38,059 nt of DNA. Origin: a virus. The stretch is from positions 1 to 38,059 of IMG/VR virus record IMGVR_UViG_3300043449_000473; one strand, 5' to 3'. This document shows, piece by piece, positions 1 through 38,059 of the stretch (positions within the stretch are counted from its first letter, which is position 1; every line of letters begins with the position of its first letter). The notes below the pieces were generated by a model. That model saw only the letters and a program-made list of their open reading frames with translations, was not told the origin of the DNA and did no database searches. The translations under genes were made by a program, and so were the position numbers.

Positions 1-27
1 GTTAATGCAACAATCTTTGGAACTTAA
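1..27 (+). CDS. 3' end of a fibre-tip domain gene (partial)
   Basis: The last eight codons and TAA stop of a gene whose body lies before the window. They are identical to the end of the fibre-tip gene at 36933-37313 and sit at the same distance from the following assembly gene. This is either the same gene seen again because the genome or contig is circular, or a second copy. Confidence 0.6.
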   Translation, partial: VNATIFGT

Positions 28-120
28 AGGACTTAAAATGACACAAGTAATCATATTTTCAAACTCTAATGGTGGTGTATCTACTTGCATCCCTACTGGC
101 GAAATCAGCATTGAAGCTGT
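1..120. repeat. 120-bp exact repeat of 37287-37406
   Basis: Bases 1-120 match 37287-37406 without a mismatch, covering the end of a fibre-tip gene and the first 28 codons of the assembly gene. The two copies then diverge abruptly: here an HNH gene follows, at the right end the intact assembly gene continues. An exact match beginning at base 1 fits a circular genome or assembly overlap joined at a locus with two population variants; a recent duplication is the alternative. Confidence 0.8.
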
Positions 121-127
121 GCTCTAA
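38..127 (+). pseudogene. Truncated fibre-assembly chaperone-like gene (29 codons)
   Basis: This reading frame starts exactly like the 133-aa gene at 37324 and matches it through codon 28. It then reads GTG CTC TAA, so it stops after 29 residues. The break is where the HNH endonuclease gene begins, three bases after the stop. It looks like the 5' remnant of an assembly gene cut by insertion of the endonuclease gene, or by recombination between paralogues. Its stop may still allow translational coupling to the HNH gene, which lacks a good ribosome binding site of its own. Confidence 0.75.
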
Positions 128-129
128 AA

Positions 130-633
130 ATGAAACCACTGCCATCATATTTAAGACTTCACGAAGTGTTTGAATACAAAGACGGTTCGCTTTTTTGGAA
201 AGTGAAGCCACACCCCATGGCAAACAGAATTAAAATTGGTGATATTGCAGACAATAAAAAAACACTAAATTACAGAACTGTGTTTCTTGACCAACAATCT
301 TACTTGCTGCATAGAATTGTGTATAAGATGTTTAATGGTGAATGTAATGGCGTAATTGACCATATTGATGGAAACCCAGCAAACAACCGTATTGAAAATT
401 TACGATTAGCAACTATGGAACAAAACCAAAGAAATGCAAAATTGAGAAAAGATAATACATCTGGAATTAAAGGCGTTTCTTTTGATAAATCTAAAAATTT
501 ATGGCGTGTTCGTTTGCAGATAAATAAAAAATGTAAAATATTTGGCGACTTTGAAGATTTAGAGCTTGCCCAATTAGTTGCTGTTGAAGCTAGAAATAAA
601 TATCACGGCAGCTTTGCCAATCATGGACTTTAA
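130..633 (+). CDS. HNH homing endonuclease with AP2 DNA-binding domain
   Basis: A 167-aa free-standing homing endonuclease. Residues about 59-95 carry the HNH_3 core: His61, then Asp77-His78 and the Asn pair at 85-86 in the segment reading IDHIDGNPANNRIENLRL. Residues about 108-160 resemble the AP2-type module (GIKGVSFDKSKNLWRVRL) often fused to phage HNH enzymes. Such proteins nick or cut phage DNA at an unoccupied allele and spread by repair copying. The gene lies between a 29-codon stub and a full paralogue of the same fibre-assembly gene, and is richer in A+T than its neighbours, both consistent with mobility. No clear Shine-Dalgarno precedes it. Family assignment is confident; the cleavage site is inferred. 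Confidence 0.9.
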   Translation: MKPLPSYLRLHEVFEYKDGSLFWKVKPHPMANRIKIGDIADNKKTLNYRTVFLDQQSYLLHRIVYKMFNGECNGVIDHIDGNPANNRIENLRLATMEQNQRNAKLRKDNTSGIKGVSFDKSKNLWRVRLQINKKCKIFGDFEDLELAQLVAVEARNKYHGSFANHGL

Positions 634-643
634 GGAGATTTAA

Positions 644-1045
644 ATGACCCAATGTATCGTATTTTCTAATGACGCTGGCGGTGTTAGCGTATGTATTCCT
701 ACTGGTGAATTGTCTATTGAGGCGGTTCAAGCTAAAGACTGCCCTAAAGGTGCAATCATTGTAGATTCTTCAGCACTTCCAACCGCTAATGACTTCTACG
801 ATGCATGGGAACTAGCTGACGGAGTAGTAACTGTTAGCCTTCCCAAAGCCACAGAACTCACTAAGAAGCGTTTACGAGCAGAGCGTGAGCCTTTGTTAGC
901 TGCACAAGATGTAGCCTTCCAAAGAGCTTTAGAATCAGGTGCAGATACTACTGCTATCGTTGCTGAGAAACAGCGTTTACGTGATGTAACTAACTTTACT
1001 GCAACGACTTTAGAGCAATTGCGTAGCCTTAAAGCTGGAGTGTAA
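644..1045 (+). CDS. Tail fibre assembly chaperone-like protein, copy 2
   Basis: A 133-aa paralogue of the gene at 37324-37725, of equal length and clearly homologous throughout. The N-terminal 45 residues differ most; the C-terminal charged helix from about residue 72 is nearly the same in both. The overall pattern (short N-terminal sheet with VIFS/IVFS, then ELADGVVTV, then a long helix) resembles small phage fibre-assembly proteins, which help trimerise or mature fibres and are encoded next to them. A strong AAGGAG site precedes the ATG. Role is inferred from similarity and position between fibre genes. Confidence 0.6.
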   Translation: MTQCIVFSNDAGGVSVCIPTGELSIEAVQAKDCPKGAIIVDSSALPTANDFYDAWELADGVVTVSLPKATELTKKRLRAEREPLLAAQDVAFQRALESGADTTAIVAEKQRLRDVTNFTATTLEQLRSLKAGV

Positions 1046-1047
1046 TC

Positions 1048-1572
1048 ATGCCGTTAACTTTATCAGGCAGTTCAGGGGTTTTAGACAATAGCGGTGCGTT
1101 TATTGCTGGTACTGCCGTAGCTTCTACATCAGGTACAAGTATTGACTTTACTAGCATCCCTAGCTGGGTTAAGCGCATTACTGTTTGTTTTAGCGGAACA
1201 AGCGTAAGCGGTTCATCAATTCCACTTGTACAAATTGGTTCAGGAAGCCCAACCACTTCAGGATATTTAGGTTCTGCTGGCGGTAGTAACAGTGTAAGCG
1301 GTAACTCTGTCACAAACTTTACAACTGGATTTGGCGCTCTTGATACTGGTGGCTCTACTATTGTTTTACAAGGCGCAATGACAATTCGATTGATGAATTC
1401 ATCCACAAATTTATGGTGTGCTACAGGAACATTTGGCTCTCCAGTTACTACTACTGCATACTGGATGGGTGGAAATGTTGCATTATCAGGTGTTTTAGAC
1501 CGAGTTCGCATCACCACAGTAAATGGCACAGACACTTTTGACGCTGGTTCAATCAACATTCTTTACGAGTAA
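1048..1572 (+). CDS. Fibre-tip / receptor-binding candidate protein B2
   Basis: A 174-aa Ser/Thr/Gly-rich, predicted all-beta protein starting two bases after the preceding assembly gene. The N-terminal ~45 residues (GVLDNSGAFIAGTAVAST, then IPSWVKRITV) are shared with the partial protein at 37728, while the rest is largely different. A constant N terminus and a variable C terminus are expected of exchangeable receptor-binding or fibre-tip modules. No enzyme motif is visible. Its gene neighbourhood is entirely tail-fibre material. Function is inferred. Confidence 0.55.
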   Translation: MPLTLSGSSGVLDNSGAFIAGTAVASTSGTSIDFTSIPSWVKRITVCFSGTSVSGSSIPLVQIGSGSPTTSGYLGSAGGSNSVSGNSVTNFTTGFGALDTGGSTIVLQGAMTIRLMNSSTNLWCATGTFGSPVTTTAYWMGGNVALSGVLDRVRITTVNGTDTFDAGSINILYE

Positions 1573-15105: not shown

Positions 15106-15159
15106 CATAGCCCTTTTTAATTGTTTTAATAATCCGTCAGATACTTTCTGCTTACATAT

Positions 15160-15188
15160 ATTATACACTAGTTACTCCAAGTTGTCAA
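15160..15188 (-). promoter_or_regulatory. Perfect-consensus sigma70 promoter
   Basis: On the - strand: TTGACA (15183-15188), 17 bases, TATAAT (15160-15165), matching both consensus boxes fully. It overlaps the 3' end of the DUF3310 gene and would start RNA near 15153, driving the 100-aa gene, nrdJ and the GIY-YIG gene as a separately boosted sub-operon. Confidence 0.85.
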
Positions 15189-18220: not shown

Positions 18221-18338
18221 TGTATTTCTCCTATTTAGTTTAAAAAGGTACTAAGCTGTGGCTAGGGATACCCCTACTTATCATGATTTTCACACTCCAC
18301 ATAAAGCATCACGTTAATACTTTATTTGCTTTTCCCAT
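18221..18338 (-). promoter_or_regulatory. Structured 5' leader of the SSB gene
   Basis: The ~118-base leader predicted from the promoter at 18345-18373 can form two hairpins: ATAAAG pairing with CTTTAT in its first half, and TAGGG-GTAT-CCCTA in the middle, before a U5 stretch and the AGGAG site. SSB leaders are sometimes autogenously repressed; that is inference here. Confidence 0.4.
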
Positions 18339-18344
18339 ACATAT

Positions 18345-18373
18345 ATTATACCACGATTTAATGCACTTGTCTA
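18345..18373 (-). promoter_or_regulatory. Sigma70 promoter for the SSB gene
   Basis: On the - strand: TAGACA (18368-18373), 17 bases, TATAAT (18345-18350) with TGG before it (extended -10). Predicted start near 18338. It begins inside the end of the 60-aa gene. Confidence 0.8.
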
Positions 18374-23735: not shown

Positions 23736-23790
23736 CTTCTTAATTCCTTATTAGTTAACTATATAGAAAACATAAATATATAAATACTAC

Positions 23791-23850
23791 TTAAGACTAC
23801 TTAAGACTACTTAAGACTACTTAAGACTACTTAAGACTACTTAAGACTAC
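23791..23850. repeat. Six perfect tandem 10-bp repeats (iteron-like)
   Basis: TTAAGACTAC is repeated six times without a mismatch, with a partial copy on the left (ATACTAC) and a degenerate one on the right (TTAGTATAAC). The 10-bp period places each copy on nearly the same helix face, as in protein-binding iterons. The tract lies in an AT-rich stretch between a strong - strand promoter and the first replication gene, so it is also in that transcript's 5' leader. Candidate replication origin or operator. Confidence 0.9.
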
Positions 23851-23935
23851 TTAGTATAACTCTATAGAGAGTATACAGTATGCTTACTTCTTTGTCAATA
23901 GCTTTTACTTTTTCTTTTACGTTTATTTTAGTCAT
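23837..23935 (-). CDS. Possible 32-aa basic peptide
   Basis: A short frame beginning with an ATG 8 bases inside the previous gene and with AGGA at a good distance: MTKINVKEKVKAIDKEVSIL and a hydrophobic/basic end. It runs through the promoter and stops in the repeats. It may be a real leader peptide, but chance cannot be excluded. Confidence 0.3.
   Translation of the reverse strand: MTKINVKEKVKAIDKEVSILYTLYRVILSSLK
23854..23876. repeat. 23-bp imperfect palindrome at the transcription start
   Basis: GTATA-a-CTCTATAGAG-a-GTATAC reads nearly the same on both strands, centred on a perfect CTCTATAGAG. It overlaps the -10 box of the promoter at 23870 and contains the predicted start site, so it could be an operator or give a hairpin at the RNA 5' end. 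Confidence 0.7.
23870..23898 (-). promoter_or_regulatory. Sigma70 promoter for the replication operon
   Basis: On the - strand: TTGACA (23893-23898), 17 bases, TATACT (23870-23875). Predicted start near 23863 inside the palindrome; the leader crosses all six 10-bp repeats before the gene at 23735 and the helicase gene. Confidence 0.85.
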
Positions 23936-34970: not shown

Positions 34971-36509
34971 ATGTCCATTTATAGGGGTGCAGGTGGCTCA
35001 GGAGATGCTACAGCAGACTCATCTAGTGAAGCCTTACTAGTTCGTGAACTAGCTGTTGAGGTACAAGCCGATGCAGACGCTGCTGCTGCCTCTGCAACTG
35101 CTGCTTCAACTTCAGCAAGTAATGCATCAACTTCAGCAACTAACGCAGCTAGTTCTGCAACCAATGCCAGTAACTCTGCTTCTTCAGCAAGCACATCAGC
35201 GACTAACGCATCTAACAGTGCGTCTACAGCTACTACTAAAGCCTCTGAAGCATCTACGTCAGCAACTGCTGCTGCAGCTTCAGCAACAAGTGCATCCAAT
35301 TCTGCTACTACAGCAACTACTCAGGCAACTAATGCTTCCACTTCCGCATCTGGAGCAAGCACTTCAGCAACTAACGCAGCCAACTCAGCCACTACAGCAA
35401 GCACTCAAGCATCAAACGCTTCAAGCAGTGCATCGGCTGCTTCCACTTCTGCAACCAATGCAGCAAGCTCAGCTACATCCGCAGCAGGAAGTGCTACTTC
35501 AGCAACTTCTTCAGCCTCTAGTGCCAGCACTTCTGCAACTAATGCAGCAGCCAGCGCTACAAGTGCAGGAACATCAGCAAGCACAGCAACTACTCAAGCA
35601 GGCATAGCAACTACACAGGCTTCTAACGCTGCTACGAGTGCCACTACAGCGTCTACACAAGCTAGTAATGCTAGTACCTCAGCTACGAACGCTGCAGCCT
35701 CTGCGACTTCTGCAAGCACTTCTGCATCGACTGCTACAACACAAGCTACTAATGCAAGTAACTCAGCTAGTAATGCTGCTACTTCAGCAACTAACGCTGC
35801 TAATTCAGCAACACTTGCAGCATCCTATACACCAAGTCAAACAGGTAACTCTGGTAAGTTTTTAACTACTAACGGTACTACTACCTCTTGGGGTTCTGCA
35901 GTTACTTCTGTTACTGGAACTGCTCCAATAGTTTCAAGTGGCGGAACAACTCCTGCACTTTCTCTAGCAAATACTACTGTAACTCCAGCAGCATATACTA
36001 ATGCTAATATTACTGTTGACGCACAAGGTCGTATTACTGCTGCTTCTAATGGCTCTGCTGGCGGAGTAACTACTTTCTCTGCAGGTACAACAGGGTTTAC
36101 ACCCAGCACAGCATCTACAGGAGCAATTACTCTTGCGGGTACTTTAGCAATTGCCAATGGCGGTACAGGACAAACAACTGCTGTAAATGCTTTCAATGCA
36201 CTTAGCCCACTCACTACACTAGGTGATATTCTTTACGAGGAAACAGGCGGTTTAGCAGCAAGACTTCCAATTGGTACTACTAGTCAAGTATTAAGTGTTG
36301 TGTCTGGTAAACCAGCGTGGACTACAGCTAGTGGAGGCGGTCAATACTTTGGTACTGCTGCTACTAAAGCTATTGCTTATAACTCAAACACTATTGCAGA
36401 GAATGTCACAGTTACTGCTGGTAACAACGGACTCTCTGCTGGTCCAATCACAATTAATACAGGATTCACAGTCACAGTAGAAACTGGTGCTGGTTGGGTC
36501 ATCGTCTAA
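34971..36509 (+). CDS. Long tail fibre with alanine-heptad shaft
   Basis: 512 aa, three parts. Residues 1-35 (YRGAGGSGDATADSS) recur as the virion-binding start of phage fibres. Residues about 36-288 are some 36 heptads of the form S/Q-A-S/T-x-A-x-x with almost only Ala, Ser, Thr and Asn; Ala at two positions per heptad suggests a tight Ala-based coiled coil, as in lambda Stf-type fibres. Residues about 289-512 are beta shaft and head (SGKFLTTNGTTTSWG, GGTGQTTAVNAFNAL). AAGGAG before the ATG. The host-binding tip is probably supplied by this C terminus and the following genes. Confidence 0.85.
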   Translation: MSIYRGAGGSGDATADSSSEALLVRELAVEVQADADAAAASATAASTSASNASTSATNAASSATNASNSASSASTSATNASNSASTATTKASEASTSATAAAASATSASNSATTATTQATNASTSASGASTSATNAANSATTASTQASNASSSASAASTSATNAASSATSAAGSATSATSSASSASTSATNAAASATSAGTSASTATTQAGIATTQASNAATSATTASTQASNASTSATNAAASATSASTSASTATTQATNASNSASNAATSATNAANSATLAASYTPSQTGNSGKFLTTNGTTTSWGSAVTSVTGTAPIVSSGGTTPALSLANTTVTPAAYTNANITVDAQGRITAASNGSAGGVTTFSAGTTGFTPSTASTGAITLAGTLAIANGGTGQTTAVNAFNALSPLTTLGDILYEETGGLAARLPIGTTSQVLSVVSGKPAWTTASGGGQYFGTAATKAIAYNSNTIAENVTVTAGNNGLSAGPITINTGFTVTVETGAGWVIV

Positions 36510-36518
36510 GGATAAATT

Positions 36519-36923
36519 ATGGCTGGCAAAATTACAATCAGCACACTTAATAACGATACAGGAGTATTAGCTACTCAGAATGGCATGACTGGTATTGCTA
36601 AAGCATGGGTAAACTTTACTGGTGGCGATGGTAATACTGCTGGCACAATAGTTACTTCTTACAATGTATCTAGCATTACAGTCAATGGCACAGGCGATTA
36701 CACAGTTACTTTTACCACTTCTATGCCTAGTGCAAACTATGTGATTGCTGGTACTGCATCAAGAAGCGACCCTGGAAATGGACCATTTTCGCTATGCGTA
36801 ACTCCTTCAACAGCACCAACATCTTCAGCGGTTCGAGTAATTACTGGTTATGGTGGCTCAAGAGCATCTGCTGGTTCTCCTAATAACTGCGTAAATGCTT
36901 GCGTTGCAATATTAAGTTCATAA
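36519..36923 (+). CDS. Fibre-tip domain protein C1
   Basis: 134 aa, beta-rich. AKAWVNFTG, SYNVSSITVNGTGDYTVTFT and a MPSANYVIAGTA strand are the signature of a domain also found at the C terminus of many aquatic phage fibres. Encoded here as a separate small gene just after the main fibre, and homologous to the next gene. Likely a receptor-contacting or fibre-capping subunit. Confidence 0.65.
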   Translation: MAGKITISTLNNDTGVLATQNGMTGIAKAWVNFTGGDGNTAGTIVTSYNVSSITVNGTGDYTVTFTTSMPSANYVIAGTASRSDPGNGPFSLCVTPSTAPTSSAVRVITGYGGSRASAGSPNNCVNACVAILSS

Positions 36924-36932
36924 GGATAAATC

Positions 36933-37313
36933 ATGGCTGGCACACTAACAATATCAACGCTATCAGACGGCACTAATAGCACTTCTTCTACTAACTGTAT
37001 TCAAGGTTCTGCAAAAGCATGGGTAAGATTTAACGGAACTGCATCAACAATAACAAATTCTTACAATGTAAGTTCTTTGACAAAAAACACTACTGGCGAT
37101 TACACAATTACATTTACCAATGCTTTAGCCAATGCTAACTACAACACAGTTTTAGGTTGTAGAAACGATTATCAAGGCACAAATGCTGATATGGCAATTA
37201 ACATAAAATTTGGTACAAGCCCTACAACAACAACTGTAAGTATTACTTGCGCTAGGTCAGGGGTAGGTAATATTGACTCAGGCATTGTTAATGCAACAAT
37301 CTTTGGAACTTAA
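36933..37313 (+). CDS. Fibre-tip domain protein C2
   Basis: 126-aa paralogue of the previous protein: same MAG(K/T)xTISTL start, AKAWVRFNG, SYNVSSLTKNTTGDYTITFT and ANYN, with a different C-terminal half. The pair is a tandem duplication with divergence in the part expected to face the receptor. Its last 27 bases are repeated at the window start. Confidence 0.65.
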   Translation: MAGTLTISTLSDGTNSTSSTNCIQGSAKAWVRFNGTASTITNSYNVSSLTKNTTGDYTITFTNALANANYNTVLGCRNDYQGTNADMAINIKFGTSPTTTTVSITCARSGVGNIDSGIVNATIFGT

Positions 37314-37323
37314 AGGACTTAAA

Positions 37324-37725
37324 ATGACACAAGTAATCATATTTTCAAACTCTAATGGTGGTGTATCTACTTGCATCCCTACTGGCGAAATCAGCATTGA
37401 AGCTGTATTAGCTAAAGACTGCCCTAAAGGTGCAATCATTGTTGATTCTTCAGCACTTCCAACCGCTAATGATTTTTACAATGCTTGGGAACTAGCTGAC
37501 GGAGTAGTAACTGTTGGCCTAGCCAAAGCCGTAGAAATTACTAAGAAGCGTCTAAGAGCAGAGCGTGAGCCTTTGTTGCAAGCACAAGATGTAGCGTTCC
37601 AAAGAGCCTTAGAATCAGGTGCAGATACTACTGCTATCGTTGCTGAAAAACAAAGATTGCGTGATATTACTAATTTCTCTGCAACGACTTTAGAGCAATT
37701 GCGTAGCCTTAAAGCTGGAGTGTAA
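37324..37725 (+). CDS. Tail fibre assembly chaperone-like protein, copy 1 (intact)
   Basis: 133 aa from ATG 37324. It is the uninterrupted version of the stub at 38-127 and a paralogue of the gene at 644. N-terminal beta part (MTQVIIFSNSNGGVSTC), NAWELADGVVTV, then a charged helix with RLRAEREPLLQAQDVAFQRA. The last ~50 bases and the junction to the next gene are identical to those at 996-1050. Role inferred from family resemblance and place. Confidence 0.65.
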   Translation: MTQVIIFSNSNGGVSTCIPTGEISIEAVLAKDCPKGAIIVDSSALPTANDFYNAWELADGVVTVGLAKAVEITKKRLRAEREPLLQAQDVAFQRALESGADTTAIVAEKQRLRDITNFSATTLEQLRSLKAGV

Positions 37726-37727
37726 TC

Positions 37728-38059
37728 ATGCCATTACAACTTTCTGGCACTTCGGGTGTTTTAGACAATAGCGGTGCGTTTATTGCTGGTACTGCCGTAG
37801 CTTCTACAAGTGGTACAAGCATTACTTTTACTTCTATCCCTAGCTGGGTAAAGCGTATTACTGTAATGCTTCAAGGTATTAGCGGTAATGGTTCTAGTGA
37901 TTTTTTAATTAGGCTTGGTACAAGCGGTGGATTTGTTTCTAGCGGATATTTAAGTGCGGCTAGTGCATTTGGTAATACTGTTGGCACAAATAATTACACA
38001 AATGGATTTGGCATATATTTAACTGGTCAAAGCGGTGCTGGAGTAATTTTTCATGGCTT
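37728..38059 (+). CDS. Fibre-tip / receptor-binding candidate B1 (partial, runs off window)
   Basis: 110 codons open to the window end. Residues 1-45 are nearly those of the 1048 gene, including a 51-base block of identical DNA, but the rest differs (ITVMLQGISGNGSSDFLIRL instead of ITVCFSGTSVSG). It is thus a different allele or paralogue of the exchangeable tip gene. Confidence 0.55.
   Translation, partial: MPLQLSGTSGVLDNSGAFIAGTAVASTSGTSITFTSIPSWVKRITVMLQGISGNGSSDFLIRLGTSGGFVSSGYLSAASAFGNTVGTNNYTNGFGIYLTGQSGAGVIFHG

Follow-up and report, generated by a model that had tools for sequence, protein, structure and literature searches.

Organization of the tail fiber tip locus

The window analyzed here is an entire virus contig of 38,059 bases that was classed as linear, so both sites of its long repeat are contig ends. 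Its genes include a terminase, a portal, a DNA polymerase, a primase-helicase, and a ribonucleotide reductase. As the original prediction had stated, bases 1-120 match 37287-37406 exactly, with zero mismatches, and the two copies part at base 121. The repeat opens at contig base 1 and closes where the copies part, a pattern that is expected at a fork in a de Bruijn assembly graph, whose branches share k-1 bases; a fork of this kind would imply k = 121. The features found at the two ends are listed in Table 1.

Table 1. Features of the tail fiber tip locus at the two ends of the contig
Feature	Position	Strand	Basis or remark
Last 27 bases of the A2 tail fiber tip gene	1..27	+	Identical to 37287-37313; contig start
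Assembly gene, native 5' remnant (displaced), 29 codons + TAA	38..127	+	Sequence comparison
HNH-AP2 endonuclease gene, intact ORF, 167 aa	130..633	+	PF13392 and phrog_99 matches
Assembly gene, substitute 5' end (codons 1-29)	644..730	+	62% nt identity to native; groups with the L045 HNH-linked copy
Assembly gene, native 3' part (codons 30-133 + stop)	731..1045	+	90% identical to the intact copy
Tip gene B, HNH-bearing allele	1048..1572	+	
Tip gene A1	36519..36923	+	
Tip gene A2	36933..37313	+	phrog_11355 tail fiber, E 4e-18
Intact (HNH-free) assembly gene allele	37324..37725	+	
Tip gene B, HNH-free allele, truncated by the contig end	37728..38059	+	98% identical over 110 aa to L005

The native fragment at the left end begins with an ATG at position 38, differs from the intact copy at three nucleotides (nt 84, 85, and 87), and ends after 29 codons in a TAA at 125-127, followed by the HNH-AP2 gene (ORF 130-633). 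At the right end the same gene is intact (37324-37725) and is followed by a different tip gene that runs off the contig. Both arrangements had been read correctly in the original prediction.

The HNH domain of ORF 130-633 matched PF13392 (HNH_3) with an E value of 5e-17 and 61.6 bits against a cut-off of 24.8, and the ORF matched phrog_99 in PHROG at an E value of 1e-59. An AP2 domain (PF00847; E 1.5e-4) scored 22.4 bits, which is below its cut-off of 33.3. Because the HNH ATG sits 2 bases past the stop of the fragment and is preceded by no clear ribosome-binding site, ribosomes likely re-initiate at the HNH gene once they have translated the 29-codon leader.

The putative name of the interrupted gene is supported by its place in the tip array, and its links to tail assembly chaperones are weak. 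PF16778 matched 16 of 26 family members (best E 0.0018), with the window copy falling below the cut-off, and phrog_4912 matched in PHROG (E 0.004). The predicted structure (pLDDT 86.7) was matched by Foldseek to tail fiber assembly proteins, including protein U of Erwinia phage Hena1 (prob 0.99, E 0.013), while a fold search of the PDB returned no significant match. The insertion point falls within a predicted helix at residues 25-32. Five other loci (L041:5046-5437, L043, L052:3127-3536, L128, and L130) encode residues 1-57 and 61-133 of the assembly protein in separate ORFs that overlap but differ in frame, which may reflect a frameshift or a real split gene.

Several repeats were observed elsewhere in the contig. 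The tail fiber gene at 35073-35842 carries about 19 registered copies of a 21-base (7-residue) repeat rich in Ala, Ser, and Thr. Seven registered copies of the 10-base direct repeat AAGACTACTT lie at 23773-23863, in a gap between minus-strand genes, and are possible origin or regulatory iterons. Two 37-base copies at 15130-15166 and 18315-18351, which are 73% identical, both contain TACATATATTATAC and lie upstream of minus-strand genes, where they may act as phage promoters.

Probable alleles of one site

Most relatives carry a single array in the order A1, A2, assembly gene, and tip gene, and close relatives of the window's type have one assembly gene. Two assembly-like ORFs were found only at a few more distant loci (L041, L043, and L052). 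Locus L005 is 88% identical to 37310-38059 and, 140 bases further on, 91% identical to 1522-2501, so that a single molecule in the HNH-free state extends from the window's right end into its left part. Because L005 passes from the right-end state into the genes downstream of the left-end state, the window ends most likely represent alternative alleles of a single site, the map being circular or permuted. This agrees with the original prediction of one locus in an HNH-bearing and an HNH-free state; the intact allele in the same contig and the HNH-free relatives indicate that HNH presence is polymorphic at this site. A tandem duplication is very unlikely, since close relatives lack a second copy and L005 joins the ends.

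A foreign front end on a native gene

The assembly ORF behind the HNH gene (ORF 644-1045) matches the intact gene in length, and its identity to the intact allele is divided sharply in two, with 62% nucleotide identity over codons 1-29 and 90.4% over codons 30-133. The best change-point lies at nt 86 (0 of 5000 permutations) and coincides with the insertion point, where the left fragment departs from the native sequence at nt 83-87, although the actual break could sit anywhere along the identical run at nt 87-119. Of 87 allele pairs with 3' identity of 85% or more, none shows a lower 5' identity than this one; ORF 644-1045 also has the largest 5' deficit of the alleles compared, and the closest 5' segment found among them reaches only 74% identity. 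From the difference in identity on the two sides of a change-point located at the insertion, the HNH gene sits within a single gene, and the native 3' part of that gene continues downstream, headed by a substitute 5' end. This end differs from the native one by 33 nucleotide changes that cause 7 amino acid changes, against 18.8 expected (0/5000), and it is under protein constraint. The motif TAAGGAG precedes the ATG of the restored gene.

These results modify how the ORF had been described. It was originally called a complete, clearly diverged paralogue, and while it is full length and diverged in its first 29 codons, the remainder is nearly native; an evenly diverged paralogue is ruled out by the change-point at nt 86. 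The 3' half of the interrupted gene, which had been thought missing behind the HNH, is present there as codons 30-133, and in a tree of 3' parts it is sister to the intact copy in the same contig (99/94).

The original prediction further proposed that the HNH element replaced an assembly-tip segment between tandem assembly paralogues, so that homing would also swap the receptor-binding tip. This would be compatible with the full length of the ORF that follows the HNH, with the difference in tip genes between the two ends, and with the paired assembly-like ORFs of L041, L043, and L052, but only the first 29 codons are foreign, the 3' 104 codons being sister to the intact gene where the first 29 are not. 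Close relatives have the single-copy array, and L005 connects the window ends without a second copy. Tip genes also differ just as strongly among HNH-free phages that share 86-95% identity in the assembly gene; because tips vary as much without an HNH, homing is not needed to explain why the window ends carry different tips, and an HNH-driven tip swap is not supported as a specific effect. We therefore consider replacement between tandem paralogues very unlikely. As a separate observation across L004-L083, the tip gene behind the assembly gene changes rapidly, often keeping about 45 N-terminal residues while the rest is replaced.

A second HNH-bearing lineage

Among the assembly gene loci compared, a directly adjacent HNH gene was found in only two lineages, the window and the pair L045/L046, whose members come from two datasets and are identical across the compared stretch. 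The L045/L046 HNH is 48-49% identical to that of the window and is fused in frame to the first 7 codons of the assembly gene. It is followed by a complete assembly gene whose 5' end is reworded, in L045 over codons 2-19 relative to its nearest relatives. Eight of 10 rare nucleotide states in the window's 5' segment are common to L045 (P 4e-8), the last of them in codon 26. Cys4 occurs in the window and L045 copies and in none of 91 other alleles, and Ala11 in these two copies and 3 others.

Trees built from the two portions of the gene differ. The HNH-linked copies of the window and L045 are sisters in the tree of 5' segments (97/96), which was built from 87 nt and places the window copy on a long branch, while the 3' part of the window copy groups with its intact allele as described above. 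A constraint joining the two HNH-linked 3' parts was rejected (p 0.0005). Placing the window 5' segment with the intact allele was rejected marginally (p 0.043), and a wider-clade constraint for this segment was not rejected (p 0.18). These sequence comparisons show common descent of the substitute 5' ends in the two HNH lineages and separate descent of their 3' parts. Because the two 5' segments share rare states and group together while the 3' parts show no such link, the HNH gene appears to form a single mobile unit with the substitute 5' end, and the two most likely share descent.

The original prediction had suggested searching other phages for HNH genes at the same codon. The same gene is indeed hit in L045/L046, but there the HNH is joined after codon 7 rather than codon 28-29, yet the reworded stretch extends to codon 19-26. 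Since the left junctions differ, a later deletion must be assumed, in which L045 would have lost codons 8-29 of its left fragment.

Neither the HNH protein of the window nor its junction was found in the other viral contigs searched, and a search of a genome collection with the HNH gave a single poor match. No clear flanking duplication of a downstream gene start was seen at 74 other HNH genes in viral loci or at 12 phage loci, and the best-scoring candidate for the same arrangement, L107, failed on inspection. The arrangement must then be rare, or the left-over fragment is quickly lost. In phage records L249-L258, HNH genes of the window's family end -59 to 0 bases from the start of the next gene at 10 of the 12 phage loci, and the HNH gene often contains the start codon of its downstream neighbor.

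Other origins for the arrangement can be weighed against this second lineage. An ordinary free-standing HNH gene might have settled in the gap between A2 and the assembly gene, with a chance illegitimate duplication of 29 codons and a 5' end drawn from unrelated mosaic recombination. The frequency with which this HNH family abuts the next gene at the 12 phage loci would favor such an origin, as would the common mosaicism of assembly gene alleles. It would nonetheless leave to coincidence that the 5' divergence stops where the native fragment stops and that two HNH-linked 5' ends share rare states absent from HNH-free alleles, and the nearest 5' segment is only 74% identical; we regard this account as unlikely.

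An assembly chimera, in which an HNH branch from another phage was misjoined at the shared 120-mer, appears highly improbable. In its favor, the repeat opens precisely at the first base of the contig, the pattern expected from a de Bruijn fork, the HNH branch is terminal in the contig, and no other contig has its junction. De Bruijn assembly, however, would need the k-mers spanning bases 120 to 121 and beyond to be present in the reads, which would confine a misjoin to the region upstream of base 1. The 3' part of the interrupted gene, moreover, has as its sister the intact allele that this contig also carries, and L045/L046 have the same arrangement in two other datasets.

It is scarcely credible that the HNH resides in a self-splicing intron or an intein whose removal rejoins native codons 1-29 with codons 30-133. 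Excising approximately 125-730 would join native codons 29 and 30 in frame, but bases 644-730 are protein-coding with conserved amino acids, and L045 does not fit such a scheme. No Rfam intron was detected around the HNH ORF at the gathering score or at E <1. An intein is excluded by the TAA stop at 125-127; in-frame fusion on both sides is absent, and a separate ATG stands at 644.

A model for a self-repairing insertion

Judged from sequence, it is fairly probable that an HNH-AP2 gene and a diverged 5' end of its target form a mobile unit that inserted into the tail fiber assembly gene and restored it. The unit would be about 0.6 kb long, comprising the homing endonuclease gene and the diverged first ~29 codons of the invaded gene, and would have entered after codon 28-29. 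The native 5' fragment would then stay upstream as a dead 29-codon leader, and downstream of the HNH the gene would begin anew from a ribosome-binding site and start codon supplied by the unit, with a substitute N terminus in frame with native codons 30-133. Because of this in-frame restart, the assembly protein could still be made. The sampled population would have held both unit-bearing and HNH-free alleles, with the contig starting on one branch of the assembly fork and ending on the other. In HNH-free alleles the endonuclease would cut near codon 29, and repair from a unit-bearing phage would copy in both the HNH and the substitute 5' end. The reworded end would also shield the donor; being 38% different from the native sequence, it probably escapes cutting.

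Whether this represents a broader class of phage HNH insertions, in which the nuclease and a reworded target 5' end move together and leave the gene restored and uncuttable, is in our judgment evenly balanced. If true, HNH elements would require neither an intron nor an intein to invade phage genes that are needed, and a homing gene inside such a gene would be tolerable without splicing since the invader provides the missing front end. The model suggests an origin for free-standing HNH genes that abut gene starts, with the left-over fragment trimmed later, as L045 may show, and it predicts the position of the HNH cut site.

Comparison with known systems

The HNH of the window belongs to the same family as other HNH-AP2 endonucleases of PHROG 99 and Pfam HNH_3, and differs from them in that the flanking duplication of the downstream start was clear only here across the 74 genes and 12 phage loci tested. 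HNH families occur at phage exchange boundaries (PMC10448857). Like free-standing phage endonucleases, this HNH family is found sporadically beside a structural gene and would be expected to spread via break repair in mixed infection. The free-standing endonucleases of T4 (seg and mob genes), however, are described as intergenic, with cut sites at distances of hundreds or thousands of bases (PMC2988022), whereas the window HNH is intragenic and supplies a replacement for the end it displaces. No phage precedent for a brought-in gene end was found in the open-access literature searched.

Closer parallels come from fungal mitochondria. In Glomus atp6, atp9, cox2, and nad3, endonuclease ORFs have inserted together with a foreign 3' end for the invaded gene, and the native and brought-in ends of atp6 share 63.5% nucleotide identity (PMC3630166); a mobile ORF carrying a gene end in atp6 of Allomyces macrogynus is cited in the same source. 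The window resembles these elements in having an endonuclease ORF within a protein gene, a diverged foreign copy of the displaced part, an open hybrid gene, a left-over native part, and a similar degree of divergence. The fungal elements, however, replace the 3' end and encode LAGLIDADG or GIY-YIG enzymes in mitochondria, whereas the putative phage unit replaces the 5' end with a new start codon and encodes an HNH-AP2 protein in a tailed phage. By analogy, the phage case is a mirror image of the fungal mitochondrial mobile ORFs, the nearest precedent found, and would connect phage HNH genes with them.
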